Below, in pieces: positions 37,229-52,380 of a stretch of DNA of 63,477 nt. Numbering within the stretch: position 1 is the first letter of the stretch; every line of letters starts with the position of its first letter. The position numbers and the translations under genes are program-made. Under the pieces are notes generated by a model. That model was not told where the DNA came from. It made no database searches and saw only the letters and a list, made by a program, of their open reading frames with translations. Source of the DNA: Muribaculaceae bacterium (GTDB lineage: Bacteria > Bacteroidota > Bacteroidia > Bacteroidales > Muribaculaceae); the NCBI GenBank assembly GCA_017409345.1, contig JAFQSX010000028.1:1-63477 (forward strand), written 5' to 3'.

Positions 37229-38587
37229 TTAGAAGAATACGTTTTCACTATCGTCGCTTGATGCATTGAAGAACATGACATAGTATATGGGCATATATGT
37301 GATATTGTTTACTTGTCGCACTTCTCTTGCATTAGAAAGGACAACTCCGGATTTAATATTATAGTCTTTTGTTGATAATAGGTTGTTTAGTGCACTATGG
37401 ATAGTGTAGTCTTTTCCTGATTTTACTTCAATGGGGAGTGGAGTTAGATTATAATAGTCATCAACTAAAAAATCAACTTCTCCTTTTTGTCTATTGTCGT
37501 AATAAAAGAGTCTATAGCCATGCGCATTTAGTTCTTGTGCTACGGCATTTTCGTAAACTCCTCCAAGGTTTATGCTCTTTTCGTCGTTGAGAATTGGTTG
37601 TAAATTATTATGATATAATTGAGCAGTGAGTAAACCCACATCATTGAGATATAGTTTTAATAAGTTTTTTTGAGCTGATTCAACAAGAGGATAATGTGGA
37701 TTTGATATAGCATTGATATTGATTGCGATACCTGATGATACAAGATATTCAAATTCGTCCTGATAACGATTAAATCGATCTCCTTTTTGACCTTGAATAT
37801 TTTTTGCCACAATTCTTTTCTTTTTATTCTCCATTTGTGAAGGCAACATATCATAAATTCGACGAATTAACAAATTTTTTCCATTGTCGTGTTCATATTT
37901 TGACGCATCGGTTGCATAGAGTGATTTTATTGAATTTTGCACCTCTCTTACTTTCACAATATTTCTCGATTTTAGATATTCATTAACGGCATCAGGCATG
38001 CCTCCTACTAACAAGTATCGTTTAAATAAATCCATTAAACGTTTATGTGACGCTTCATCTAACGACTCCTTCTTCTGAAATTTTTCTTTTATAGAAGATA
38101 TTGCAAATTCGCCAAAATCATTAGCAATGAGAAATTCTTCAAAATCAAGTTGAGTCATTTTTTTTCTTATTATGCTTCCAATGGGGATTGAGGTGGTTGT
38201 GCGCAATGTTATTCCTAACAAACTTCCACTGGCAATATAGCGATAGCGATGCTCTTGGCGGAGAAATTTAAGCATTGTAAGAAATTGCGGATAGTGCTGA
38301 ATTTCATCTATGAAAATTAATGTATTTTTCATATTATCAAGTTTGCTACCAGCAACCATGCTCAATGCAAGATAAAATTCCTCAGGCGATCTCACTTTTT
38401 TGAAAATTTGAGCGCCTTCATCATCTTCTACAAAATTAATTTCGATGAAGTTCTTGAACATTTTACGCCCAACAGTTCTAATGATAAATGATTTGCCAAC
38501 CTGTCGAGCTCCTTCAATGACTAATATTTTGTCGCTATCTGATTGAAGATGAGTCTCTATTTCCTTCCTTATTTTTCTATATAACAT
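37229..38587 (-). CDS. AAA_14 / DUF4143 family ATPase
   Basis: This 452-residue protein joins an AAA_14 P-loop domain to a DUF4143 domain. Walker A is GARQVGKS at 26-33, and Walker B is LIFIDEIQHY around 90-99. A sensor-like IASGSLLG follows. The C-terminal DUF4143 part carries a PD-(D/E)XK-like GEVDFLVDD...LPIEVKSGK motif (about 363-386), as in restriction-type nuclease folds. These genes are common, often multicopy and mobile in gut Bacteroidales; the biological role is unknown. It has its own promoter inside a set of three direct repeats. Confidence 0.88.
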   Translation of the reverse strand: MLYRKIRKEIETHLQSDSDKILVIEGARQVGKSFIIRTVGRKMFKNFIEINFVEDDEGAQIFKKVRSPEEFYLALSMVAGSKLDNMKNTLIFIDEIQHYPQFLTMLKFLRQEHRYRYIASGSLLGITLRTTTSIPIGSIIRKKMTQLDFEEFLIANDFGEFAISSIKEKFQKKESLDEASHKRLMDLFKRYLLVGGMPDAVNEYLKSRNIVKVREVQNSIKSLYATDASKYEHDNGKNLLIRRIYDMLPSQMENKKKRIVAKNIQGQKGDRFNRYQDEFEYLVSSGIAININAISNPHYPLVESAQKNLLKLYLNDVGLLTAQLYHNNLQPILNDEKSINLGGVYENAVAQELNAHGYRLFYYDNRQKGEVDFLVDDYYNLTPLPIEVKSGKDYTIHSALNNLLSTKDYNIKSGVVLSNAREVRQVNNITYMPIYYVMFFNASSDDSENVFF

Positions 38588-38592
38588 TGTTT

Positions 38593-38673
38593 TTTACACT
38601 TTTCAATATGATTTGATGGAGCAAATTTACACTTTTCAATATAAAAATGCAAATAAATTTACACTTTTCAAAT
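38593..38673 (-). promoter_or_regulatory. Promoter and triple-repeat operator of the DUF4143 ATPase
   Basis: Three direct copies of TTTACACTTTTCAA start at 38593, 38626 and 38658, that is 33 and 32 bases apart (about three helical turns). The middle copy overlaps the minus-strand -7 box TAAATTTG (38622-38629), and the first lies between promoter and start codon. The layout suits repression by a DNA-binding protein, perhaps the ATPase itself; that is inference. Confidence 0.6.
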
Positions 38674-38829
38674 TTTTTGTGGCATTTTTGTACCAGCCCC
38701 ACACTCTCTGTGTCTGTAAAGACGCGATTCGATTATATTTACTTCCCCAAAATTAGAAAAGAAACACCAGTATTCTTGAGGTAGAGGGATTCGTCTTGAA
38801 AAAGTTTCATTTTGTAGATTTTTGAGTTA

Positions 38830-38875
38830 ATGCACGATTTTGCATGGTCGAAGTGTTAAATGTTTTTTATTTTTG
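38830..38875 (+). promoter_or_regulatory. Regulon element A, upstream of TPR-AraC gene
   Basis: The palindrome ATGCACGATTTTGCAT (38830-38845) is identical to the one at 48073-48088. TATTTTTG starts 38 bases after the palindrome start, as in the other copies. A second, better box TACCTTTG (38896-38903) may use the TTTG at 38872-38875 as its -33 element, so the start of transcription is ambiguous. No upstream half-site is seen 21 bases before it. Confidence 0.6.
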
Positions 38876-38928
38876 TAAAAACTAATATTTTTTCATACCT
38901 TTGTGTGAAACCCTAATACGCTATCATT

Positions 38929-40566
38929 ATGAAATTTAAGTCGTTTATTTGTGTGGTATTATTTCTTTTGTTGGCATCTGTTCCAATTAGTGCCGTGACC
39001 ACTGATATAACTACTATAGAGAAACAAATTTCAGAATATGATGCCTCAAGTGGCAGTGAGTATATTTCCATTGCAAATAATGTGATGCGATTGTTTTATG
39101 CGGAAAAGATTACCGATGAGGCAATTGAGTTTGAGGCAAATGCTCCTCGCGATTCGGTAAACCAACAAGTGTGGTATTGGGCGAGTGAATATTTCTATGC
39201 CCATCAGGCCTATCCTCAAGCATTGAAATATGGTTTACAGGCACTCCCATTATGTAATAATGATGAAGACAGGGCCAATTATTTGAGTTTGATATCGTTG
39301 ATATATTTCCGACAATCCAATTATGAGCAGGCGGCAAATTATGCCAAGCAATGTTATAAACTTGACGAAAAATCGGGCGACCCCGATGTGATGAGCTCGT
39401 CGCTCAACACCCTCGCCGGCATATATATCGGAGCCAATCAGCCTAAAGAGGCAGAGCAATATATTCTCAAAGCTATCGAACTTGCCAAGCAAGCCAACAA
39501 CCCGGCGCGCATGGCCGTGCTTAATGGTATGGCATCGGAGGTGTATCATGCCCTTGGCAACGGCAAGGAAGCATTAAAGTATATCAACGAAGCATGTAAT
39601 ATTGAGCAAAAATTAGGTAATGAACGCAAATTGATGGTGCGGTTGTCGCAAAAAGCAGCGGTATTGATTGGGATGCATGATTATAAGGGTGCTGAAAAAC
39701 TACTCAATCAAGTAATTCCATATCTCGAAAAGGAGGGAAATAAGCAGTCGCTTGCTATTTCTTGCAACAAAATGGGAATGGCATTGGTGGGGCAAAACCG
39801 CGACAATGAAGCGGTGGGCTACTATCGCAAGGCTGCTGAGATTTTTGCCAACATCGGTGACCGAGGAAATGAAATGCACTCTCGCAAAGGACTTTATGAG
39901 AGTCTATGGAGTAGCAACCCTGATAGTGCCAAAATCGAATTAAATCGCTTTAACGATTTGAAAGATTCTCTATATAATATGGCTTCGGCCGAGAGTCTTG
40001 CTCGTTATAATGCCGAGTTTGGCTCTGATTGGCTACAGCATGAAAATGAATTACAAAAAGCCAAAACACAGAAGATTATCGTTTTTGGGGGTATTTTGCT
40101 GATTATTTTGGTAGGTGGAGTGTGGTTATTTATAAAACGAAAGATGCGCTTGCGCGAAGCAGCATTGCAAACTATTATCAAGGGGTTGCAGCCTCAGAAT
40201 AATATCGAGATTATTCCTGAACAAGAGGAATTAAGCACATCTGATCAAGAATTGTTGGATCGATTGGTTGACGAAGTGAGAAATAATATGACACATGGGG
40301 ATATTTCAATTGAAACTTTGGCCTCAAAATTATGTATCACTCGAGGGCAATTAAATCGTCGCATAAAGTCTATTACAGGGGTCACCACTCAACAATATGT
40401 GTTGCGAATACGCCTTGAGCATGCACGATTGTTACTCGTTGACAATAAAGAAACACCGATATCGGAAGTGGCGTTGGAATGTGGGTTTGAAGATGCCACT
40501 AGTTTCTCTAGAGCATTTCGTCGCACTTTTGAAAAATCACCATCTCAATATCGCAACGAGAGGTGA
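38929..40566 (+). CDS. Membrane-anchored TPR regulator with AraC-type DNA-binding domain
   Basis: This 545-residue protein has a signal peptide (1-22), a periplasmic array of tetratricopeptide repeats (about 80-330, for example AANYAKQCYKLDEKSGDPD and YGLQALPLCNNDEDRANYL), one transmembrane segment (383-403) and a cytoplasmic AraC/XylS helix-turn-helix domain (441-545, ending GFEDATSFSRAF...SPSQYRNE). It is therefore a one-protein sensor: the TPR part senses outside the membrane and the HTH part binds DNA inside. A palindrome-type operator lies in its own promoter region, so autoregulation is likely. Its end is followed by a palindrome/terminator shared with the next unit. Confidence 0.87.
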   Translation: MKFKSFICVVLFLLLASVPISAVTTDITTIEKQISEYDASSGSEYISIANNVMRLFYAEKITDEAIEFEANAPRDSVNQQVWYWASEYFYAHQAYPQALKYGLQALPLCNNDEDRANYLSLISLIYFRQSNYEQAANYAKQCYKLDEKSGDPDVMSSSLNTLAGIYIGANQPKEAEQYILKAIELAKQANNPARMAVLNGMASEVYHALGNGKEALKYINEACNIEQKLGNERKLMVRLSQKAAVLIGMHDYKGAEKLLNQVIPYLEKEGNKQSLAISCNKMGMALVGQNRDNEAVGYYRKAAEIFANIGDRGNEMHSRKGLYESLWSSNPDSAKIELNRFNDLKDSLYNMASAESLARYNAEFGSDWLQHENELQKAKTQKIIVFGGILLIILVGGVWLFIKRKMRLREAALQTIIKGLQPQNNIEIIPEQEELSTSDQELLDRLVDEVRNNMTHGDISIETLASKLCITRGQLNRRIKSITGVTTQQYVLRIRLEHARLLLVDNKETPISEVALECGFEDATSFSRAFRRTFEKSPSQYRNER

Positions 40567-40599
40567 AAAAGTTGCATAAAATAGTGTAATTTGGTTATT

Positions 40600-40666
40600 T
40601 TGCATCATAATGCCAAGACCTTGCACGATTGTGCAAGGTCTTTTTTTGTTGTTATATATACCTTTA
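40600..40666 (+). promoter_or_regulatory. Regulon element B: two half-sites and -7 box
   Basis: The half-site TTGCATCATAA (40600-40610) is followed exactly 21 bases later by the palindrome TTGCACGATTGTGCAA (40621-40636). The box TACCTTTA (40659-40666) begins exactly 38 bases after the palindrome start. There is no TTTG at the -33 position, which fits activator-dependent initiation. It precedes the stand-alone AraC domain gene by 31 bases. Confidence 0.7.
40615..40642 (+). terminator. Terminator of the TPR-AraC gene, overlapping operator B
   Basis: A 12-bp perfect stem (40615-40626 with 40631-40642) with a GATT loop runs into seven or more T residues. Its inner stem is the regulatory palindrome of element B. 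Confidence 0.8.
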
Positions 40667-40697
40667 CAACGCTAAATATTTATGGCAAAAAAGTTTT

Positions 40698-41066
40698 ATG
40701 GATAAAGGTAGGCGTAATAACAAAGTAAATCAATTTTTTCTTGAACGATTAACCTCAATAATAAAAAAAGAGATGGCTTCCGGGAGTGTCTCTTTAGAGG
40801 CGATTGCTTCACAGATGTATATCACTCGTGGACAATTAACTCGTCGAGTTAAAGCGATTAAAGGAATGACTACCCAGCAATATGCGATGAAAGTACGTCT
40901 CACTCATGCTAGTAATTTGTTAAAAAACAATATCGATATGGCAATATCTGAAGTTGCTTTCAGGTGTGGTTTTGAAGATGCTACAAGTTTTTCTCGTGCA
41001 TTCCGTCGCAAATATGGGATATCTCCCTCCGAATATCGTAATGATGATAATTTAATTGATATCTAA
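40698..41066 (+). CDS. Stand-alone AraC-type DNA-binding protein
   Basis: This 122-residue protein consists of little more than an AraC/XylS DNA-binding domain. From residue 29 on it closely matches the C-terminus of the TPR-AraC regulator (ITRGQLTRRVKAI, MTTQQYAMKVRLTHA, GFEDATSFSRAFRRKYG, SPSEYRND). It lacks signal peptide, TPRs and membrane segment, so it could bind the same operators without membrane control. The start is the ATG at 40698; an upstream TTG lies in the terminator hairpin and is unlikely. It begins after element B and is followed 10 bases later by the YARHG-domain gene. Confidence 0.82.
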   Translation: MDKGRRNNKVNQFFLERLTSIIKKEMASGSVSLEAIASQMYITRGQLTRRVKAIKGMTTQQYAMKVRLTHASNLLKNNIDMAISEVAFRCGFEDATSFSRAFRRKYGISPSEYRNDDNLIDI

Positions 41067-41076
41067 GATCTTGAAC

Positions 41077-41814
41077 ATGGGCTTGAATGTGAAAATATTA
41101 ATGGTATTTTTCGCTATTATGTTTTTGAATAGCGCATCAAGTCAGACGATAAAGGTTGGCAATAAGTTTTTTGATGGCGAATGTCTTTACACTTGCCAAG
41201 AGATTCGTATGGGCAAAATTGTTTACTTCACCGGGGTTGATTACAACGGCGATTGGCGTGAATTGACATTAAAGCACAAATCAAAAAATGAATATACACT
41301 TCAACCCAGTTATCAAGCCGAAGACGCTCCATTTAATGTAACATTTGGCTGCACTGTGAGATATATCCGTAAGGACGGAATGTATTTCCTTGAGGTATTG
41401 AATAAAAATAAAACGTTGGAATGGGTACTTTTGTTAACCCCCGATGATGTTGATTATTGCCTGTCGGCCTATCCGTCACTCGTGGGCAATCGTGTGTGTT
41501 CGGTTACTACAAGTTTGCTCAATCGCCCCTATTTGAGCCGATTTCCAAAGTCCGAATTAAGAATAATGCGTAATATGATATATGCCCGACATGGCCACCG
41601 TTTTGAGTCGGAAGATATGCAAGCATTGTTCTCGTCGATGGAATGGTATAAGCCTAATAACGATAATAAAAAGATAAAACTAAGCATTATCGAGAAAACT
41701 AATCTTGCACTTATCATGGCTGAGGAGGCTATGCCCGATGATTTGCGCAAGAACTTGGGTCAATATATGCCCGAATATTCAATCGAAGACTTTATGTTTG
41801 GTACTAACTATTAA
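41077..41814 (+). CDS. Exported YARHG-domain protein
   Basis: This 245-residue protein has a signal peptide (about 1-23, ending SASSQ). A beta-rich N-terminal half follows (FTGVDYNGDWRELTLKHK). The C-terminal YARHG domain reads SELRIMRNMIYARHGHRF with the ALFSSMEWYKP follow-up, around 163-195. The YARHG domain is usually extracellular and is linked with peptidoglycan or envelope proteins; its activity is unknown. The ATG at 41077 is preferred over an earlier TTG that overlaps the AraC gene. It is in one operon with the stand-alone AraC gene and the lipoprotein that follows. Confidence 0.82.
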   Translation: MGLNVKILMVFFAIMFLNSASSQTIKVGNKFFDGECLYTCQEIRMGKIVYFTGVDYNGDWRELTLKHKSKNEYTLQPSYQAEDAPFNVTFGCTVRYIRKDGMYFLEVLNKNKTLEWVLLLTPDDVDYCLSAYPSLVGNRVCSVTTSLLNRPYLSRFPKSELRIMRNMIYARHGHRFESEDMQALFSSMEWYKPNNDNKKIKLSIIEKTNLALIMAEEAMPDDLRKNLGQYMPEYSIEDFMFGTNY

Positions 41815-41829
41815 TAAATTTACAAAACA

Positions 41830-42354
41830 ATGAAAAAAACAATTTTGATGGCATTTGCTGCCGTAGCAATGATTTTTACTGCATGTGGTAATAGCAATAA
41901 GGCTCAAGGTGGTGCTGAAGAGTCTGCTGCAAATGAAATCCCTGCAGGTTTTGCTAAGTATGAAAACAATGGCATGTCGTTTATCTATCCCGACAAAATG
42001 CACGTTGGCTTTGAAATGTCAGAAGGTGTGAAAAATGTAAATATCGACAACGAAGATGGTAGCTGTAAATTGGCTGTTACTTTCAACGAAGATGGTCCCA
42101 CTGAAAGCCAATTGGAAGAATCTAAAACCAACTATGAAGCAATGTTGAGAGCGCTTCAAGAAACTGTTACATCTTCAGAAGTGAAAGACAATGTAGTAAT
42201 TGTTCGCTCTAACTGCGAAGGCGTTGAAAAAATCTGCTTCTTGGTTCATCAAGGTGGTACAAAATGCCTCAATGCTCAATTTACATTCCCTACTGATAGT
42301 GCATCGGTATATAATGCATACCTCGAACCTATCATCAAATCAATGAAGAAATAA
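41830..42354 (+). CDS. Lipoprotein of unknown function
   Basis: This 174-residue protein has a clear lipobox (FTAC, about residues 16-19). A mixed alpha/beta mature domain includes GMSFIYPDKMHVGFEMSEG (residues about 47-65) and ends FPTDSASVYNAYLEPIIKSMKK. The pattern (protein exposed as a short globular domain with a Ser/Gly-rich linker) resembles small stress-type envelope lipoproteins, but no family is recognised. It is the last gene before the terminator/operator of element C. Confidence 0.7.
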   Translation: MKKTILMAFAAVAMIFTACGNSNKAQGGAEESAANEIPAGFAKYENNGMSFIYPDKMHVGFEMSEGVKNVNIDNEDGSCKLAVTFNEDGPTESQLEESKTNYEAMLRALQETVTSSEVKDNVVIVRSNCEGVEKICFLVHQGGTKCLNAQFTFPTDSASVYNAYLEPIIKSMKK

Positions 42355-42393
42355 TAATATTTTTTGCTCCAAAAACGTCTCTTATTGTGCAAT

Positions 42394-42460
42394 TTGCACG
42401 ATAATGCAAAGGCCATGCACGATTGTGCATGGCCTTTTTGATTCCTAATATCTAATTTTA
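42394..42460 (+). promoter_or_regulatory. Regulon element C: two half-sites and -7 box
   Basis: The half-site TTGCACGATAA (42394-42404) is followed 21 bases later by the palindrome ATGCACGATTGTGCAT (42415-42430). TAATTTTA (42453-42460) begins exactly 38 bases after the palindrome start and 34 bases before the LRR gene ATG. Confidence 0.7.
42408..42437 (+). terminator. Terminator of the lipoprotein gene, overlapping operator C
   Basis: A 13-bp perfect stem (42408-42420 with 42425-42437) with a GATT loop, entering a T run. The central part is the regulatory palindrome. Confidence 0.8.
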
Positions 42461-42486
42461 CCAAATAATATTAAAAACAAATATTT

Positions 42487-44247
42487 ATGAAAAAACTTTA
42501 CTCATTTTTTGCAATTTTCACGTTGACTGCTGTCAGCGCGTTTGGTGCCACCGACTATGGTTTGACCGTGGGTGGTGTTGATGTTACTTCCGATAATTGC
42601 TCAAATATTACGGGCGAACATATTGAGAAACATTCAAGTGCTACCGACGATGAATACTATATAAAGTATGATCCGGCGACAAAAACTCTTACTTTCAAGA
42701 ATATCCTGATTGAACGCACCGGTAGTTACAACCGTGCCATCTTGAATGAAGATGTAGATGGATTGAAAATTGTGTTTCTTGGGAAAAATGAACTCTCAGC
42801 CGAAGATTCTTCACCCGTGAGATTAAATAATAATACCACAATCACTGTCCCCGAAGGTGGTGAACTTGATGTGCATGGTGGAGATGAAGATGGTATTACC
42901 GTTGGAAATGGCAAGACCTTGATTTTTGATAATGTATATGATTGTTCTGTTTCTACCAGCAATTCCAATGCCATTGAAGGTGCTACCGGAAAAGAGAACC
43001 TTATTGTTAGGAATAATTCTTGTGTAATAGCTTTTGCCCAAAGCGAAAACCACAATGGAGTATATGATTTTGCCTCTCTCACGGTCTCTGACTCTTATTT
43101 TAATGTAGTTGGTTATGCTTACGCTATTGAAAAACTTGGCTCATTTACCCATGAAGGTGCTTACCCGATAGTAATGGGAGCTGTTTATAATGCCGAGAAA
43201 AAAAGATTTGGTGCATTTCAAACGCAAATAGCGGTAGGTGTTTGTAGAACTGATGAAACAGTATTTCCTGACGCCAACTTCAGGCAGGCTCTTTATGAAT
43301 TTGCAAAAAATCCAAGTTCGGGCATTGTTGAAGGACTTCCATATAACTATTATACCTATCCGGTCGGAGCCTATACAGGCTATATTAAAGAATGGAGAAA
43401 AATGGATTTGGCAGGGAAATCAATTGCAAATCTAAAAGGAATTGAACATTTTTACAATCTGCAAACATTGATTTGCAACGACAATCAACTGACTAGTGTT
43501 GATTTAACTAAAAATGTAAACCTTTCGACATTAAATTTATCTAATAATTCTCTTTCAACAATTGATTTGTCTAAAAACAAGGAGTTAAATACTTTAGCTC
43601 TCCGAAATAATAAACTTGAGTCGTTAGATATTATAAACAATAGTAGTTTAGAATATCTTTATGTAAATAATAATTTATTGACAGGGATTAACCTAGGCGC
43701 AAATTGGATGTTGAAATACTTAGATATAAATGATAATAAACTTAATACCCTTGATCTTTCATACGCTGATTATATGAAAGAAGTTAATTGTCAAAATAAT
43801 AAACTCACTGAGATTAGTGTAGGTAACATAGCGAGATTGAATTGTTCAAATAACAATTTAACAGGTCTTAAATTCGACGCATATAGTGGTGCTAATTTTA
43901 AATATTTAAATTGTTCCGACAATGCAATAAATGGCGCGAATGTACAGCAGTTTGTGGATAAATTGCCCACACCATCAGCAAGTAATAATGCTGAACTTGT
44001 GTTCAAGTCATCGTCCGATACCGAGAAAAACTCAATGTCACAAGAGCAAGCCATTACTGTTATGGGTAAGAATTGGACATTGAAACACACCAACGGAAAT
44101 ATTTATCTTGGTGAAGCCGGTGTTGAAGGTGTTGAAGTTGACCCTATCGACGACAATGCTCCTCGCTACAACCTCAATGGTCAACCGGTCGATGATAATT
44201 ATCGCGGCATAGTGATTCAAAAAGGGAAGAAAATATTAGTAAAATAA
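42487..44247 (+). CDS. Secreted leucine-rich-repeat protein 1
   Basis: This 586-residue protein has a signal peptide ending AFGA (residue 20). A beta-helix-like N-terminal domain comes first (YGLTVGGVDVTSDNCSNI, NNTTITVPEGGELDVHGG). Bacterial-type leucine-rich repeats follow at about 330-470 (LQTLICNDNQLTSVDL, LSTLNLSNNSLSTIDL, LKYLDINDNKLNTLDL). A short tail (APRYNLNGQPVDDNYRGIVI, then QKGKKILVK) is almost identical in the paralogue at 46494 and may be a sorting signal. It is the first gene after element C. Confidence 0.85.
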   Translation: MKKLYSFFAIFTLTAVSAFGATDYGLTVGGVDVTSDNCSNITGEHIEKHSSATDDEYYIKYDPATKTLTFKNILIERTGSYNRAILNEDVDGLKIVFLGKNELSAEDSSPVRLNNNTTITVPEGGELDVHGGDEDGITVGNGKTLIFDNVYDCSVSTSNSNAIEGATGKENLIVRNNSCVIAFAQSENHNGVYDFASLTVSDSYFNVVGYAYAIEKLGSFTHEGAYPIVMGAVYNAEKKRFGAFQTQIAVGVCRTDETVFPDANFRQALYEFAKNPSSGIVEGLPYNYYTYPVGAYTGYIKEWRKMDLAGKSIANLKGIEHFYNLQTLICNDNQLTSVDLTKNVNLSTLNLSNNSLSTIDLSKNKELNTLALRNNKLESLDIINNSSLEYLYVNNNLLTGINLGANWMLKYLDINDNKLNTLDLSYADYMKEVNCQNNKLTEISVGNIARLNCSNNNLTGLKFDAYSGANFKYLNCSDNAINGANVQQFVDKLPTPSASNNAELVFKSSSDTEKNSMSQEQAITVMGKNWTLKHTNGNIYLGEAGVEGVEVDPIDDNAPRYNLNGQPVDDNYRGIVIQKGKKILVK

Positions 44248-44314
44248 TAAAAATGCTCCCTTCTCTATAATTAAAGGAGATTTTGAATTGAAAGGAATAT
44301 AAAAATAAAAGAAT

Positions 44315-45112
44315 ATGAGAAAAGTATTTTTAAATACATCTTACTTGTTGCTATGCATTGTTGGCATTTGCTTCATATCAAGTTGTGAAGATCACTTGAG
44401 TGACTCTAAAAAGGATAAATGGGCTTCTCTCGTCAATGAAACCCATTACGAACCGGTGATTGAAGGAAATGCAATCTCGTATGGCTCTCATTTTTATACT
44501 GTTAATGGTGAAATAACAGATGAAGTGGTGGCAGGACGTAGAGATACTCCCACTGCATGGGTTACTTTCACAAACATACCTTCGGGATATGCTGAGTTTA
44601 AGGATGTATATAACGGATTATTGGGTAAATCAATTCAAGGCACGGCTGCGATGATTCCCATGGCCATAGAAATATATGCGCGTGATGCCGCAACCGGCGA
44701 AGAATGTTTTAAACTATTATGTAATAGTCAATCAACCGTTGATGGTATATTGCGAATATTGAAAGACCGTATTACTCCTCGTGAAGAATCGGGTGCCGAT
44801 GATTCGTATGTCCAACGATATATGGCCGCTGCCCTACTCAAAGATGCTACCCCACAAAATGCATACACCCCTTATGAACCATATACTGTTGAGATGTGTG
44901 CTTCGGCAAATAAACCGCAAAAAGTGACAGGTGGAACCGACACTTTTGTATATATCCTTTGTAAAGGTTGGGATACCGATATTTATGAATATGCGCAACG
45001 ACAAGTTGAAATATTTCAAGCAAACGGCTCTAATCTTTACAAAGTTTATAATTGCCCGTCAACATATACTCATTGTCAGGATATTATAGGTGATTGGAAA
45101 GGATTAAAATAG
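44315..45112 (+). CDS. Lipoprotein, paralogue A of a duplicated family
   Basis: This 265-residue protein has a lipobox (ISSC, around residues 21-24). Its mature part is paralogous to the protein at 51583-52380: shared blocks are IPSGYAEFKDVYNGLLGKS, AAMIPMAIEIYARDAATGE, LLKDATPQNAYTPYEPYTVEMCASAN-type and YILCKGWDTDIYEYAQRQVEI (all quoted in part). The family name is uncertain to me. It lies between two unrelated secreted proteins in the same transcript. Confidence 0.75.
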   Translation: MRKVFLNTSYLLLCIVGICFISSCEDHLSDSKKDKWASLVNETHYEPVIEGNAISYGSHFYTVNGEITDEVVAGRRDTPTAWVTFTNIPSGYAEFKDVYNGLLGKSIQGTAAMIPMAIEIYARDAATGEECFKLLCNSQSTVDGILRILKDRITPREESGADDSYVQRYMAAALLKDATPQNAYTPYEPYTVEMCASANKPQKVTGGTDTFVYILCKGWDTDIYEYAQRQVEIFQANGSNLYKVYNCPSTYTHCQDIIGDWKGLK

Positions 45113-45134
45113 TAACATATAAAATATATTAACG

Positions 45135-46415
45135 ATGAAAAAGAACAGATTTATCACATGTTTGTTTTTGGCTATTGCCATGGTATTCGTTAACCCTATC
45201 TGCGCAAATGCTCAATTTAGCAAAATAGCTAAAGGGTTAGGAAAAAAAGCAAAAGAAAAAGTAGAAAAGGAGATTAAATCAAGTGCAAAAGAAACTGTAA
45301 ATAGCGTTGTTGAAGAATCCACAGGAGGAACTATTGAATCAACGACAAATGCAGCACATCCCAAAACTCTTGCCGATCTCAACCCCGAATTATTCCCATA
45401 TCAACCCTATGGAGAGGGTGATAACACATATTTTTATGACACAAAAGCTAATGTTGTAAAAAAAGGGTATTCTGATTTTTGCGGAGCATTAACTTGTGCC
45501 GATTATAGCTTTGTAACACGAAGAGACGGATATGCACTTCCTGAATTTGTGGGATATAAATCAAGTCGAGGAAATGTATATGTTCCCATTGTTGAATATC
45601 CTATGACAGCCTATCTATCGGCATTTATGCTTGACCCAAACAATCCTGCAACATATCGCTACTATGTGAGAGCCAATATCATCCATGAAGCATTTCGTTG
45701 GGGACGAGTAGTGGTAGTGCGTGGTGACCAAAACTCCCTTAAAACAAAGAATAGCAAAGGGGAAACCATCAACTTATATGAAACTGAATATAATCGTTTC
45801 CAACGTTGGTCAAAAGCCACCGGTGAAGCAAGCGAAATATATGACAAATGTACAGCATACGAAACCGTAGGCTCTGCAGCAGTAGGAACTATCAATCAAA
45901 TTCAAGAATTTATTGACAACGGCAATAAAAAAGGAGCAGTAACATGGATGCGTGAACTTGATATGATTATGGAACATATGGATAAACATCCAAAAAATCC
46001 ACACAACGCCGATTATACAGCCGTAGTTGATTTATATAAAGAACTTAAAGAGCAAACAAAAGAGTATGCCGATGATGTGGCAAGCGAAGATTTTCCGGTT
46101 GCCGATATGCCTACGGCAGTTAGTGTCGATGCAACAACAAAAGCCGGTGCCGAAAGAGCCGCTAAAGATAAATTTGGCGACAAATTCGTAAAAGTATTGA
46201 TTACAAGTGGATGGAAAGATTTCCAATCAAAAGAATGGCCCTACCCTATCACTCATCGAAGTTGTGACATTGCGGTGATTACCAAAGAAAAAGGAACTTA
46301 TTTTATTAATCGTTGGTGCTTATTACAAAACTATTCGGGAGGCAAGCCTGAAAACTCATATCGCATTCAAGCAGCAATGGGAGTAATCGTAAAGCAAAAA
46401 GTTAATTATAAATAA
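45135..46415 (+). CDS. Exported protein of unknown function
   Basis: This 426-residue protein has a signal peptide ending ANAQ (residue 27). A short lysine-rich amphipathic helix follows (KIAKGLGKKAKEKVEKEIKS, about 30-49), then a Ser/Thr linker, then a globular domain with strands such as YKSSRGNVYVPIVEYPMTAY and helices ENSYRIQAAMGVIV-type near the end. The domain holds a WGRVVVVRGDQNS strand. No family is recognised. It lies 22 bases after the preceding lipoprotein gene, so they are co-transcribed. Confidence 0.68.
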   Translation: MKKNRFITCLFLAIAMVFVNPICANAQFSKIAKGLGKKAKEKVEKEIKSSAKETVNSVVEESTGGTIESTTNAAHPKTLADLNPELFPYQPYGEGDNTYFYDTKANVVKKGYSDFCGALTCADYSFVTRRDGYALPEFVGYKSSRGNVYVPIVEYPMTAYLSAFMLDPNNPATYRYYVRANIIHEAFRWGRVVVVRGDQNSLKTKNSKGETINLYETEYNRFQRWSKATGEASEIYDKCTAYETVGSAAVGTINQIQEFIDNGNKKGAVTWMRELDMIMEHMDKHPKNPHNADYTAVVDLYKELKEQTKEYADDVASEDFPVADMPTAVSVDATTKAGAERAAKDKFGDKFVKVLITSGWKDFQSKEWPYPITHRSCDIAVITKEKGTYFINRWCLLQNYSGGKPENSYRIQAAMGVIVKQKVNYK

Positions 46416-46430
46416 TTAATTATTATTCAT

Positions 46431-46463
46431 GGAGATTAGCTCTAAAATTTGAGTCTAATCTCC
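46431..46463 (+). terminator. Possible terminator between 45135 and LRR gene 2
   Basis: A 9-bp stem (46431-46439 with 46455-46463) is followed by a weakly T-rich stretch. Termination may be partial. Confidence 0.5.
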
Positions 46464-46493
46464 TTGATTTTAACAACAATAAAATAGATATTT

Positions 46494-48035
46494 ATGAGAA
46501 AATTTTACACCTTATTAGCGACATTAGCTTTGGTTTCGACCACACTTTGGGGAGCGACAAACTATGGTTTGAAAGTTGGGGGCGTAAGTATTACCTCCGA
46601 CAATTGCTCAAATGTAACAGGTAGTAATATTGTAGCATACAATGCCGGTAGCGAACATTTTGTAAAATATGACCCTAACACCAAAACCCTCACTCTTAAA
46701 AATATTAAGATTGAGCGCTCCGGCAGCTACAATCGTGCAATCTTGAACGACGATGTTGACGGATTAACAATTGTATTTATAGGAGGAGCCTATTTGGCAG
46801 CAAAAGATGCTTCACCTGTGAGATTAAACAATAATACCACAATCACTGCACAAGATAGTGAAAGAGTTAGATTTTGGGGCGAAGAAGAGGATGCTCTTAC
46901 CATTGGGAATGGCAAAAAATTGATTATCGATAATATTTATTTGCAAGCAAATGCCTTAAATTCAACATGTATTATAGGCGACGAAGGATCAGAAACTGTT
47001 ATTATTAATGGTGGAGCAATGGTTGAAACTTACACATATGCGTCATCTTCATCTGAAGCATCTATAAGGGATCTCGGCTGGTTAAGAGTTGAAAACTCTT
47101 TCTTAAAATTGAATAACAATGGTGCCGGAGCCGTTCACTCTCGCAACATTAAAACATTCTCATATGGAGGAAATTATATGGGAGTGGTAAATGGCGAATA
47201 TTCATCGACCAACAAAGCTATCACTCACAATAAAGATTTATTTGGCGACGATAATGCATTATATATAACTAAACATGTTTTTTATAATGATACAGAATAT
47301 TTTAATGATGATTTTGGCACGCTATTGACCAAAATGGCAGCCACAAAAACAATCTATAACAAGGTGCTGCTGTTGCCTAATGGTTTATATGCCGGAAAAG
47401 TTGACCTATGGACTTCGCTCGATGTGTCAAACAAAAATCTCATTTCATTGCAAGGCATAGAATTTTTAACCGACCTTAAAGAATTGAATTGCAGTAACAA
47501 CAGTTTGAAATCTATTGATTTGTCAAAAAACACCGCATTAACAAATCTCAATGTCGCTAATAATCAATTAACTGCATTGAATGTGGAGAATAATTCAAAA
47601 TTGGTTAATATAGATTGCAGTAATAACTTAATTTCTCAATTAAATCTTTCAAAAAATATCAAATTGAGAACAATAGCATGCTATAAAAATCAAATTTTCA
47701 ATAGTACAAACACTAAAAATGGAACATATTTTGTCAACAATCTTCCCGATTTGAGCAAATATATTTCAGGTTCAGCAACAATTGTATTTAAGCATGCCAC
47801 CGAACCCGACAATAATTCTCTTTACACCGAGGAGATAGTGGTTGCTAACAACAAATTTTGGTCTTTAGAATATACCGATGGAAAGTTTTATAATGGTGAA
47901 GGTAGTGGCATAAAAGGCATAGAAGTTGATGATACTGAGGAAAACGCCCCACGCTATAACCTACAAGGTCAACCCGTCAATGATAACTATCGCGGCATCG
48001 TGATTCAAAAAGGCAAGAAAACGTTAATCAAATAA
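46494..48035 (+). CDS. Secreted leucine-rich-repeat protein 2
   Basis: This 513-residue paralogue of the protein at 42487 has a signal peptide ending LWGA (residue 21). The N-terminal domain (YGLKVGGVSITSDNCSNVTG, AILNDDVDGLTIVF) aligns well, but there are fewer leucine-rich repeats, about 320-420 (LKELNCSNNSLKSIDL, LTNLNVANNQLTALNV). The tail APRYNLQGQPVNDNYRGIVI is followed by QKGKKTLIK. The repeat number difference suggests contraction or expansion after duplication. No regulon element lies before it; a hairpin does. Confidence 0.83.
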   Translation: MRKFYTLLATLALVSTTLWGATNYGLKVGGVSITSDNCSNVTGSNIVAYNAGSEHFVKYDPNTKTLTLKNIKIERSGSYNRAILNDDVDGLTIVFIGGAYLAAKDASPVRLNNNTTITAQDSERVRFWGEEEDALTIGNGKKLIIDNIYLQANALNSTCIIGDEGSETVIINGGAMVETYTYASSSSEASIRDLGWLRVENSFLKLNNNGAGAVHSRNIKTFSYGGNYMGVVNGEYSSTNKAITHNKDLFGDDNALYITKHVFYNDTEYFNDDFGTLLTKMAATKTIYNKVLLLPNGLYAGKVDLWTSLDVSNKNLISLQGIEFLTDLKELNCSNNSLKSIDLSKNTALTNLNVANNQLTALNVENNSKLVNIDCSNNLISQLNLSKNIKLRTIACYKNQIFNSTNTKNGTYFVNNLPDLSKYISGSATIVFKHATEPDNNSLYTEEIVVANNKFWSLEYTDGKFYNGEGSGIKGIEVDDTEENAPRYNLQGQPVNDNYRGIVIQKGKKTLIK

Positions 48036-48051
48036 ACAGATAAACTCATTA

Positions 48052-48118
48052 TTGCATCATAAAGACAAAACTATGCACGATTTTGCATATAATCGTCTCG
48101 TTAGAATATTTAACTTTG
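48052..48118 (+). promoter_or_regulatory. Regulon element D: two half-sites and -7 box
   Basis: The half-site TTGCATCATAA (48052-48062) is followed 21 bases later by the palindrome ATGCACGATTTTGCAT (48073-48088). A good -7 box TAACTTTG (48111-48118) starts exactly 38 bases after the palindrome start. Here the stem lacks flanking pairs and a T run, so it is an operator only. It lies 50 bases before the lipoprotein gene at 48169. Confidence 0.75.
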
Positions 48119-48168
48119 TATAAATAACACAATCTTTAATACTAATTAAATAATAGGAGATTTAAATT

Positions 48169-48723
48169 ATGAGAAAAATGTTTTTTGCTGCATTGGCAGC
48201 AGTAGCGATGTTTGTAACATCATGTGGATCAAGTGTTGAGTATGAAACATTGAGTAAAGATTACAACAACAGTTGGAAAGTATCGGCAGTTGTGCCTAAA
48301 GGTGTTTATAAATTAAACGACACTCTCCCTGCTGCAATTCCTGCTGCAATTCAAGAAGCAGCAAGTATCTCAAAACCACTCTATCTCGCAGGTGATAAAA
48401 TTGCAATAGGTTTCACAAAGGGTGAAGTTTATGACCAAACTTTTGCCACTTGGGCAGCAAATTATAAAGATTCAGAAGGTTATAAAGATATTAATATTGC
48501 AGGTCGTAAAGGTTTCCGCAAAAACATTAGCGAAAGAATCAATGATCAACCTACACTTGTGGGTTATGAATATTATGTAGAGGCTCCTGAAGTTGGTGAA
48601 GGCGGATATTTCGTTGCCGAAATTTATCCTACAACCGAAAAATTTGATGATTTAGGCACTGTATTGGAATCTCCTGAAATCGTACAAGTGCTTGATTCTT
48701 TGAAACTTGAAGTTATTAAATAA
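48169..48723 (+). CDS. Lipoprotein of unknown function
   Basis: This 184-residue protein has a lipobox (VTSC, about residues 16-19). The mature part is mixed: VSAVVPKGVYKLNDTLPAAI near the start, a helix EAASISKPLYLAGDKIAIG-type in the middle, and a C-terminal helix ending SPEIVQVLDSLKLEVIK. No family is recognised. It has the best promoter of the regulon elements and stands alone. Confidence 0.72.
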   Translation: MRKMFFAALAAVAMFVTSCGSSVEYETLSKDYNNSWKVSAVVPKGVYKLNDTLPAAIPAAIQEAASISKPLYLAGDKIAIGFTKGEVYDQTFATWAANYKDSEGYKDINIAGRKGFRKNISERINDQPTLVGYEYYVEAPEVGEGGYFVAEIYPTTEKFDDLGTVLESPEIVQVLDSLKLEVIK

Positions 48724-48999
48724 GAAAGTCAGATACTTGTTGGCACTGCCGTTGGGATATTTAATTAATATTTACAACTTACCTCTCCGAACTGCATCCC
48801 AATTCTCGTCCCCTATATTATTAGGTGCAAACAAATGATAGTTTGGCTGACGATTGAATCCATGATATAAGGAACTCTCCTCTTGAAATTTTGTAAAAAT
48901 TTTAGGAGGAGTACCCCAACGGGGGGAGGTGGTAAAACTAATTATGTGCCAATATGGTTATGTTTCCCTAAAATAATTTATTGATAGTAAAAATAAATC
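48724..48999. repeat. Repeat-like relic region
   Basis: No intact gene. An imperfect inverted repeat (48874-48892 with 48896-48912) and a small CCCC/GGGG hairpin (48914-48925) suggest a REP- or MITE-like extragenic element. On the minus strand the part near 48781-48875 reads as a decayed frame (LYHGFNRQPNYHLFAP, then ENWDAVRRGKL) that looks like a coding remnant. No promoter box for the gene at 49000 was identified. Confidence 0.4.
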
Positions 49000-51582: not shown

Positions 51583-52380
51583 ATGAATGTTTTTAAAGGA
51601 ATAATGATTGCAACAATAACTGCATTTTCATTTATGTTTGCAGGATGTGATGAAGTGGAAGAATTGTTGGGAATAGAGAAGGATCAATGGAATCATTTAG
51701 TAAATGAAAAAGAGTATGAAACAATACTTGAGGGGAATACTCTCAAGTATGGCACTCATGAATATAGTGTAGAAGGAGTTATTGATAAAGAAATAATGGC
51801 AGGTCGTTTTGATGATCCTACTGCTTATGTCTCTTTTTCAAATATACCATCGGGATATAAAGAGTTTAGTGCTGTTTATAATGGATTGTTGGGTAAGTCA
51901 GCTCATGGTGTGGCTGCAATGATTCCTATGGCGATGGAAATATATGCACGTGATAATGCGACCGGAGAGCGTTGTTTACGATTATTGTGTCATGGAGAAA
52001 CATCGGCAAATGAGGTTATTAGTGTTTTAAAGGAGCGATTCAAAACCAATGAATATGGAGGAGAGAATGATTTTTATGTACAACGTTATATACCTGCAGC
52101 ATTGCTTCGTGGTGCAACTCCTCAAAATGCATATCGTCCAGAAGAACCTTATTCTGTTGACATGTGTGCGTCGGTAAATAGCCCTAAAGAATCTTCGTTA
52201 GGTGTGGTTTATTATATTTACATATTGTGTAAAGGATGGAGTACTGGTGGATTTGTTTATGCTCAACGTCAAGTAGAAATCCTAAAGCCTACTGGATCAG
52301 GTGTGTATAAGGTGTTTAGTTGTCCTTCTACATATGTACAATGTCAACAAATCGTAGGTACATGGCGAGGTCTTAAATAA
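51583..52380 (+). CDS. Lipoprotein, paralogue B of a duplicated family
   Basis: This 265-residue protein has a lipobox (FAGC, about residues 19-22) and aligns along its full length with the protein at 44315-45112 (IPSGYKEFSAVYNGLLGKS, AAMIPMAMEIYARDNATGE, YILCKGWSTGGFVYAQRQVE). Residue differences are scattered, so the duplication is old. It has its own promoter and terminator, and lies outside the run of regulon elements. Confidence 0.75.
   Translation: MNVFKGIMIATITAFSFMFAGCDEVEELLGIEKDQWNHLVNEKEYETILEGNTLKYGTHEYSVEGVIDKEIMAGRFDDPTAYVSFSNIPSGYKEFSAVYNGLLGKSAHGVAAMIPMAMEIYARDNATGERCLRLLCHGETSANEVISVLKERFKTNEYGGENDFYVQRYIPAALLRGATPQNAYRPEEPYSVDMCASVNSPKESSLGVVYYIYILCKGWSTGGFVYAQRQVEILKPTGSGVYKVFSCPSTYVQCQQIVGTWRGLK

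Follow-up and report, generated by a model that had tools for sequence, protein, structure and literature searches.

The 63,477-nucleotide stretch of Muribaculaceae DNA analysed here (contig JAFQSX010000028.1 of assembly GCA_017409345.1, denoted the window) contains four copies of a short motif built from TGCA boxes, each upstream of a gene and three of them part of a tandem repeat. These sites are very probably activator operators of a membrane-anchored one-component regulator encoded in their midst, as judged from comparison of the sites and the candidate regulators among related genomes. The regulator, denoted TPR-AraC, joins a tetratricopeptide repeat (TPR) sensor to an AraC-type DNA-binding domain and is followed by AraC2, a stand-alone copy of the latter domain; coordinates of all features are compiled in Table 1.

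The cluster had been noticed in a sequence-only reading as four copies of a palindrome core with a half-site 21 bases earlier in three of them and a box at +38, and all of these coordinates were recovered by pattern search. The exact core TGCACGATTNTGCA is found at 38831, 40622, 42416 and 48074, the enclosing 16-mers beginning one base earlier, and the 36-bp composite TTGCAYSATAA-N10-WTGCACGATTNTGCA matches the three tandem operators exactly. The palindromic nature of the element did not hold. What had been taken for a palindrome makes more sense as one half, the promoter-proximal one, of a direct repeat of AraC type in which TGCA-N6-TGCA recurs with a period of 21 bp; aligned at this distance, both halves display the pattern TGCA-N6-TGC(A), with boxes at 0, 10, 21 and 31. 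The half-site appears palindromic because TGCA is self-complementary, and its symmetry is not conserved. An operator for an inverted dimer was rejected, the proximal half being TGCACCATTTTGCA in the related loci L105 and L107 with the 21-bp repeat retained. Two AraC-type domains arranged head to tail, each with two helix-turn-helix (HTH) motifs on successive major grooves, would need boxes of this layout. Direct half-sites about 21 bp apart at the promoter, as typical of the AraC/XylS family, are found at all copies except 38830, where a single half-site is present.

With up to three mismatches allowed, the composite did not occur in any of 100 shuffles. The core alone is not enriched in the window at the same tolerance (28 matches, 23.2 expected), and as such a short core at three mismatches is close to chance, the claim rests on the exact copies and their geometry. 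A motif search of the whole genome (2.09 Mb in 38 contigs, 75% complete), as had been proposed, revealed that the exact motif is not scattered: four of the five exact cores are the window cluster and the fifth lies within the coding sequence of a 505-aa GTPase open reading frame (ORF) on contig C1, which we take to be HydF-like. The looser composite (up to three mismatches) yields six matches in this genome, namely the three window sites and three with two or three mismatches, and the control one; a wide regulon was rejected on these numbers. A pattern of half-site plus box (up to two mismatches) yields ten matches, comprising the four window sites, one further exact copy and five with two mismatches, and one match for its control. 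The further exact half-site with a −7 box at +38 lies on contig C9 (1810-1854, reverse strand; loci L120 and L176), upstream of tandem lipoprotein genes which by eye we presume to be SUMF1-like, and is a candidate for a distant regulon member outside the cluster. An orthologous copy is present in genome G103, whose nearly identical flanks mean that its conservation carries little weight. A plasmid copy of the AraC2 promoter was likewise sought as a near match, and none was found.

The distance between operator and promoter is fixed as well. Among 22 tandem sites from four genera, picked by position weight matrix (PWM) score alone and irrespective of the box, 20 possess a [TG]AnnTTT[AG] box 23 or 24 bp past the operator, compared with a mean of 0.16 and a maximum of 3 in 2000 shuffles. 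The proposed comparison of related genomes thus showed both the tandem repeat and the −7 distance to be kept. The box is missing from two sites, one of them an echo on the reverse strand in L033 and the other an additional site of L112 with opposite orientation. In a wider set the box is present at 30 of 30 sites, which include three added by hand (L115, the TPR-AraC site of L035, and L176, where the pattern itself required the box), so that 20 of 22 is the fair figure. Leaving aside distal halves and echoes on the reverse strand, half-site matches without a box include L105:1132, L107:1125, L107:6138, L111:7408(-), L112:521 and L114:1656. The two tandem operators of L112 (500-535 and 442-477) have opposite orientations, and the one without a −7 box is possibly a looping partner.

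The consensus of Bacteroidetes sigma-ABfr promoters consists of a −7 element TAnnTTTG and a −33 element TTTG, according to PMC7366714. The −7 box is present at all four window sites, with a final A in two. At the usual −33 spacing no TTTG is found in the three tandem copies, in agreement with the sequence-only reading; in the region 12-32 bp before the box it occurs only at 14, 16 and 29 bp, respectively. Because of this lack, the tandem promoters of the window look activator-dependent. Upstream of TPR-AraC itself, a single half-site (exact or with one or two changes) with a box at exactly +38 is found in 9 of 16 distinct upstream regions of the clade defined below as clade A, spanning three genera, one of the nine (L035) having been added by eye. 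For the window copy it had been left undecided whether the box at 38868 belongs to this half-site or to a second promoter. The identical +38 distance in all nine such sites favours the former assignment; a second promoter at 38897 may still exist. A second TAnnTTTG-like box follows 50-56 bp down in five of the nine regions, the one at 38897 having counterparts in only four of the other eight single sites (L031, L032, L033 and L106).

TPR-AraC and AraC2 have their recognition helices in common (ITRGQLNRR/ITRGQLTRR and FEDATSFSRAF), and both match the Pfam model HTH_18 above cut-off, the helices of the two HTH motifs being visible in the structure model. Over 50 distinct TPR-AraC loci, the operator is present in the 3′ region of all 16 encoding matching helices (clade A; 25.2-55.5 bits) and in none of the 34 others (5.4 bits or less). 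The PWM was seeded with 11 sites which in part stem from the scored regions (L031, L107, L109, L114, L115 and the first L111 site being non-seeds), so that more weight attaches to the 34 low scores than to the 16 high ones. Sensor similarity is not the explanation, because L037, L090 and L180, with sensors 60, 56 and 55% identical to that of the window and DNA-binding domains 35, 34 and 41% identical, lack the site, whereas L104, L109 and L112, with sensors 48% and DNA-binding domains 54-62% identical, possess it. By these identities, the operator tracks the DNA-binding domain and not the sensor. Clade A is monophyletic in the trees of both the sensor and the DNA-binding domain (FastTree support 0.997 and 0.999). 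The earlier proposal, in which TPR-AraC and/or its stand-alone paralogue governs an AraC-type regulon, is supported by the conserved geometry, the tracking of the operator with the domain and the common helices. Eleven AraC2 domains, which come from four genera, group together inside clade A (95) with an ultrafast bootstrap of 85, short of the customary 95; the duplication thus seems to be old and to have been kept. AraC2 has neither a sensor nor a membrane span and its gene is preceded by a tandem operator; it would therefore most simply be a soluble relay or amplifier. Another stand-alone AraC domain, outside the AraC2 clade, is found at L197:2400-2879 beside a TPR-AraC of another clade.

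Within the family Muribaculaceae, 297 genomes were searched with a slightly widened composite (up to three mismatches); 26 of them contain it, and none matched the reversed control pattern. Eighteen of the 297 encode a TPR-AraC with 48% identity or more, a cut set after the list had been seen, and the composite is present in 16 of these. The two exceptions are G146 with a degenerate site (26.6 bits) and G017, whose DNA-binding domain differs and in which a scan of 16 kb detected no site. The ten motif-positive genomes outside the 18 contain one match each, with two or three mismatches and, within 3-kb loci, not beside a TPR-AraC; among them, the neighbour of the L053 match is an ORF encoding a different kind of AraC domain, and that of the L050 match a small AraC-like ORF. 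Thirteen named relatives are metagenome-assembled genomes of Muribaculaceae, Bacteroidales and Prevotella/Prevotellaceae, with a ruminant named for eight. The operator is positioned between the TPR-AraC stop codon and the next gene, which encodes AraC2, a leucine-rich repeat (LRR) protein or a lipoprotein. The best copy of G109 precedes a small lipoprotein gene, and the clade-A TPR-AraC of this genome is located on another contig with a weaker site (25.2 bits). A search across the order (393 genomes) gave matches in seven, two of which belong to the genus of the window; seven may be an undercount, given three scored candidates per genome. In G053 (L032:4746-6380) and G005 (L038:9983-11634) the TPR-AraC frames are interrupted with operators and AraC2 remaining, either by true loss or by assembly error.

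For a view of the TPR-AraC loci that does not depend on the PWM, direct repeats preceding a −7-like box were sought in their 3′ regions at shifts of 8-40, taking the best match out of 15. In the 50 regions, which are related and not independent, the mean best match is highest when the shift is 21 (9.4 of 15, versus 4.2-6.3 at the other shifts). A match of at least 11 at 21 bp is reached in 27 regions, 10 of the 16 from clade A, whose remaining six come to 10, and 17 of the 34 others, and at 22 bp in 5 of the 50. For 3′ regions of other genes in the same loci, a control that includes regions without any box, the corresponding number is 5 of 374, and the G109 operator lies in one of these five (L108). 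Three entries were removed before counting: L032, L186 (interrupted) and L199 (938 aa, other architecture). Below the threshold are L090, L093, L094, L095, L097, L100, L102, L180, L181, L182, L183, L185, L188, L189, L192, L193 and L195, among which L182, L183 and L185 reach 10 and L100 has its repeat at 22 bp instead. In L180 and L188 the repeat before the −7-like box peaks at 32 bp, or about three helical turns.

The repeated words differ between clades. Prevotella-type proteins (helix FRQRL or LRQRL / YNDTxNF or YSDTPNF) are accompanied by CGAAATGATAACG-like repeats, spaced by 21 bp in all seven loci with both halves matched and followed by the box after 31 bp in seven of eight cases and 30 bp in one. 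In four loci of a third clade the repeats are GGTCAAAAATGTT-like and spaced by 21-22 bp, its members L093, L094 and L095 showing none, and in a fourth clade TTTGTAAGTTTTT-like repeats were recognized by eye. The downstream genes often encode proteins of the same kinds as in the window, i.e. LRR_4/LRR_5 proteins, small lipoproteins and, by eye, AQ[LF]GG..KKAK proteins. Prevotella-type loci also contain a conserved ORF of 39-48 aa between operator and target gene, in the position taken by AraC2 in the window (a likeness read by eye), with longer possible kin in L191 and L188. On balance, we favour the view that the regulators of this architecture in Muribaculaceae and Prevotellaceae constitute a family of insulated switches for surface proteins, each typically encoded just upstream of its own 21-bp repeat and fixed −7 box. 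The sensor fold and the targets (LRR/BspA-like proteins, small lipoproteins and AQ[LF]...KKAK proteins) would be kept, and recognition helices and operator word would change together; in the clade of the window, a copy of the DNA-binding domain would have become a soluble relay, and operator and upstream terminator would have fused.

In the mechanism proposed for the window, TPR-AraC would consist of a periplasmic TPR sensor, a single membrane span and a cytoplasmic AraC-type DNA-binding domain. Two such domains would be arranged head to tail on the two half-sites 21 bp apart, each half-site offering the paired HTH motifs of a single domain two TGCA-like boxes one helical turn apart. The proximal half-site, ending 23-24 bp before the −7 box, would cover or abut the −33 region missing from these promoters, and the regulator could recruit polymerase at this position in a class II-like manner. 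Predicted targets are AraC2 and the genes behind it, the LRR proteins and the small lipoproteins, with TPR-AraC itself controlled via a half-site only. AraC2, presumably an old duplicate of the DNA-binding domain devoid of sensor and span, most likely reads the same sites and may act as a diffusible relay of the signal. At two of the sites the proximal half-site would furthermore double as the stem of the terminator of the upstream gene.

This overlap is seen for the hairpins 40615-40642 and 42408-42437, the first of which has the half-site at 40621 as its upper part and was the only one listed by the terminator scan; the stem of the second takes up part of its T run. For eight aligned sequences, a small and related sample, 96.9% of the pair cells of the 40615 stem are kept, with compensatory changes at two pairs. 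Changes on both sides of a pair are located outside the TGCA boxes and comprise G-C to C-G once and A-U to G-C twice, in two genera. The observed pairing was reached in none of 500 shuffles and the covariation score in two, and two of the five covariation measures fall within the shuffle range (both-side-changed pairs, 30/500; pair types, 260/500). An intrinsic terminator with stem, T run and covariation is hence found at 40615-40642, the assignment of 42408-42437 is by fold alone, and the copies at 38830 and 48073 do not fold into terminator-like structures. In G103 the hairpin is longer and without a T run, and in L105 (G040) a different hairpin is located over the distal half. The repeat is kept without a hairpin around the proximal half in L105, L106 and L107, of which L105 was folded. 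An RNA element was rejected, as no Rfam match at gathering thresholds was obtained in 38500-48900 and the hairpins account for only two of the four copies.

Given the two strong hairpins before T-rich stretches and the compensatory changes in the stem at 40615, the repeated elements might be nothing but intrinsic terminators or a terminator-like repeat family, with a core shared through terminator duplication rather than regulation. This is scarcely credible, because two of the copies (38830 and 48073) form no terminator, conservation extends to the distal half-site and the −7 distance, the repeat persists without the proximal-half hairpin in L105, L106 and L107, and the covarying flanks of the hairpin lie outside the TGCA boxes. 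It is likewise very unlikely that a regulator encoded elsewhere reads the sites and that TPR-AraC is linked to them by genomic neighbourhood only. Other AraC-type proteins do exist in these genomes, but the presence of the operator follows the helices of the neighbouring DNA-binding domain over 50 loci, and where the helices differ, half of the TPR-AraC proteins are accompanied by a different repeat in the corresponding position.

More consideration is required for the possibility that the sites are operators at which TPR-AraC or AraC2 represses or competes, AraC2 being a soluble competitor in a negative feedback. AraC2 has the same helices, no sensor and a tandem operator in its own promoter, and a proximal half-site beside −33 could block polymerase as well. 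We consider this unlikely, since the tandem promoters of the window lack a normally spaced −33 TTTG and so look activator-dependent, a 21-bp direct repeat adjoining the promoter is the usual activating AraC layout, and the operator occurs without an adjacent AraC2 at L104, L109, L114 and L115. The preference for activation over repression is due to the missing −33 element. Several observations weigh against activator operators read by TPR-AraC. Repression would yield identical conservation of the sites, and many of the sites come from close relatives with shared ancestry. Seven of the 16 distinct clade-A loci, including L107 which borders an assembly gap, have no site upstream of TPR-AraC, and the second tandem site of L112 is without a box. 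The −7 boxes TACCTTTA and TAATTTTA end in A in place of the consensus G, part of the PWM seeds derive from the tested regions, and 17 of the 34 loci with other helices stay below the repeat threshold of 11 out of 15 at 21 bp.

Table 1. Operators, promoter elements, hairpins and genes of the regulon. Positions refer to the window unless a locus is given.
Feature	Position	Strand	Remarks
Single (proximal) half-site ATGCACGATTTTGCAT	38830..38845	+	upstream of TPR-AraC gene; distal half-site absent
−7 box TATTTTTG, TPR-AraC promoter	38868..38875	+	+38 from half-site
TPR-AraC regulator	38929..40566	+	Pfam HTH_18 E 1.1e-24, TPR_12 E 4.1e-21
Tandem operator between TPR-AraC and AraC2	40600..40635	+	TGCA boxes 0/10/21/31, second box TGCC
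Terminator hairpin on proximal half-site	40615..40642	+	12 pairs, then T5 (40643-40647); -19.7 kcal/mol, z -5.95
−7 box TACCTTTA	40659..40666	+	at +38
AraC2, stand-alone AraC DNA-binding domain	40698..41066	+	Pfam HTH_18 5.8e-23
YARHG-domain protein	41077..41814	+	directly after AraC2; Pfam YARHG 5.1e-18; secretion read by eye
lipoA, small lipoprotein	41830..42354	+	weak relatives in modules of L105 and L111
Tandem operator upstream of LRR1	42394..42429	+	
Terminator-like hairpin on proximal half-site	42408..42437	+	13 pairs, then TTTGATT; -22.9 kcal/mol, z -5.36
−7 box TAATTTTA	42453..42460	+	at +38
LRR1	42487..44247	+	predicted N-terminal beta-rich domain and LRR domain, C-terminus GIVIQKGKKILVK; Pfam LRR_4 4.4e-13
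DUF6935 protein	44315..45112	+	in LRR1 unit; Pfam
AQFSKIAKGLGKKAKEK protein	45135..46415	+	in LRR1 unit
LRR2	46494..48035	+	paralogue of LRR1, 41% identical
Tandem operator upstream of lipoB	48052..48087	+	without terminator; second box AGAC
−7 box TAACTTTG	48111..48118	+	at +38
lipoB, small lipoprotein	48169..48723	+	no Pfam or NCBIfam match
39-48-aa ORFs of Prevotella-type loci	L037:11742-11864, L039:10026-10145, L040:2814-2933, L041:6843-6959, L042:11650-11766, L043:11799-11942		

The 545-aa TPR-AraC comprises a signal peptide, the TPR domain (residues 27-364), a long helix with a membrane span (367-420) and the AraC DNA-binding domain (437-545), signal peptide and span being read by eye from the sequence. 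Its AlphaFold2 model (predicted local distance difference test, pLDDT, 83.5) depicts a TPR superhelix, a single long helix passing through the membrane region, and the AraC domain. The nearest folds in the PDB are TPR peptide binders such as LGN and Rap, and the model fits a peptide as putative ligand. In the LRR1 model (pLDDT 80) the N-terminal domain is beta-rich and, by our reading of its strands, solenoid-like. The nearest PDB folds are LRR proteins, with a Foldseek value of 3.4e-10 to internalin J (InlJ) that reflects fold likeness of the LRR domains. The C-termini of LRR1 and LRR2 read GIVIQKGKK(I/T)L(V/I)K (44206-44244 and 47994-48032), are largely invariant in eight aligned relatives and are possibly a sorting signal. 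Of two DUF6935 paralogues in the window, one (44315-45112) is found inside the units described and the other (51583-52380) outside.

Activators of the AraC/RhaS type acting as class II activators employ direct half-sites about 21 bp apart beside the polymerase. TPR-AraC resembles them in its DNA-binding domain with two HTH motifs (NCBIfam RhaS model, E 1.1e-18, 67.7 bits, below the cut-off of 288) and differs in having a membrane-tethered periplasmic sensor, as predicted, instead of a cytoplasmic sugar-binding domain, and in its Bacteroidetes −7 box TAnnTTTG. Proteins of the MarA/SoxS type are AraC proteins reduced to the DNA-binding domain. AraC2 is a bare domain of this kind as well; contrary to them, it duplicates the domain of its neighbour and probably reads the same operators. 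The equivalog model for SusR reaches 26.1 bits with a cut-off of 480, and only in the sensor part of TPR-AraC.

Close in organization are the AraC-type hybrid two-component systems (HTCS) of Bacteroides, for which the predicted motifs are direct repeats with an average of 21 bp between sites and the regulons are often local (Ravcheev et al. 2013; PMC3878776). They too carry a C-terminal AraC-type DNA-binding domain on a membrane-spanning protein with a periplasmic sensor (PMC3878776). TPR-AraC differs by a TPR sensor of another family and has no histidine kinase or receiver among the Pfam matches over its 545 aa. The targets of the HTCS are polysaccharide utilization loci, whereas those predicted for TPR-AraC are LRR proteins and lipoproteins; a fixed −7 distance and an overlap of operator and terminator were not encountered in the portion of PMC3878776 consulted. 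The sensor itself recalls FimS of Porphyromonas gingivalis, a periplasmic TPR sensor with membrane spans that controls surface structures (PMC11053733), and is matched by the NCBIfam FimS model (E 1.3e-11, 43.5 bits, cut-off 600). FimS is a histidine kinase with a separate response regulator (PMC11053733), whereas in TPR-AraC the sensor is followed by an AraC domain and not by a histidine kinase, so that the protein carries its own DNA-binding domain.

In the portions of the literature covered by our search no description of the TPR-AraC architecture was found. By the comparison given here, the architecture, the operator word, the terminator overlap and the family rule are new, and AraC-type direct-repeat activation from a membrane sensor is of a known kind. 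For this architecture an operator, a promoter geometry and a list of predicted targets are now available, with LRR proteins and lipoproteins of Muribaculaceae as the probable output. Since several of its paralogous clades keep the spacing and differ in operator word and recognition helices, the family provides a natural test set for the evolution of AraC-type recognition. By analogy, FimS suggests that TPR sensors may be a common input for the control of surface structures in this phylum.

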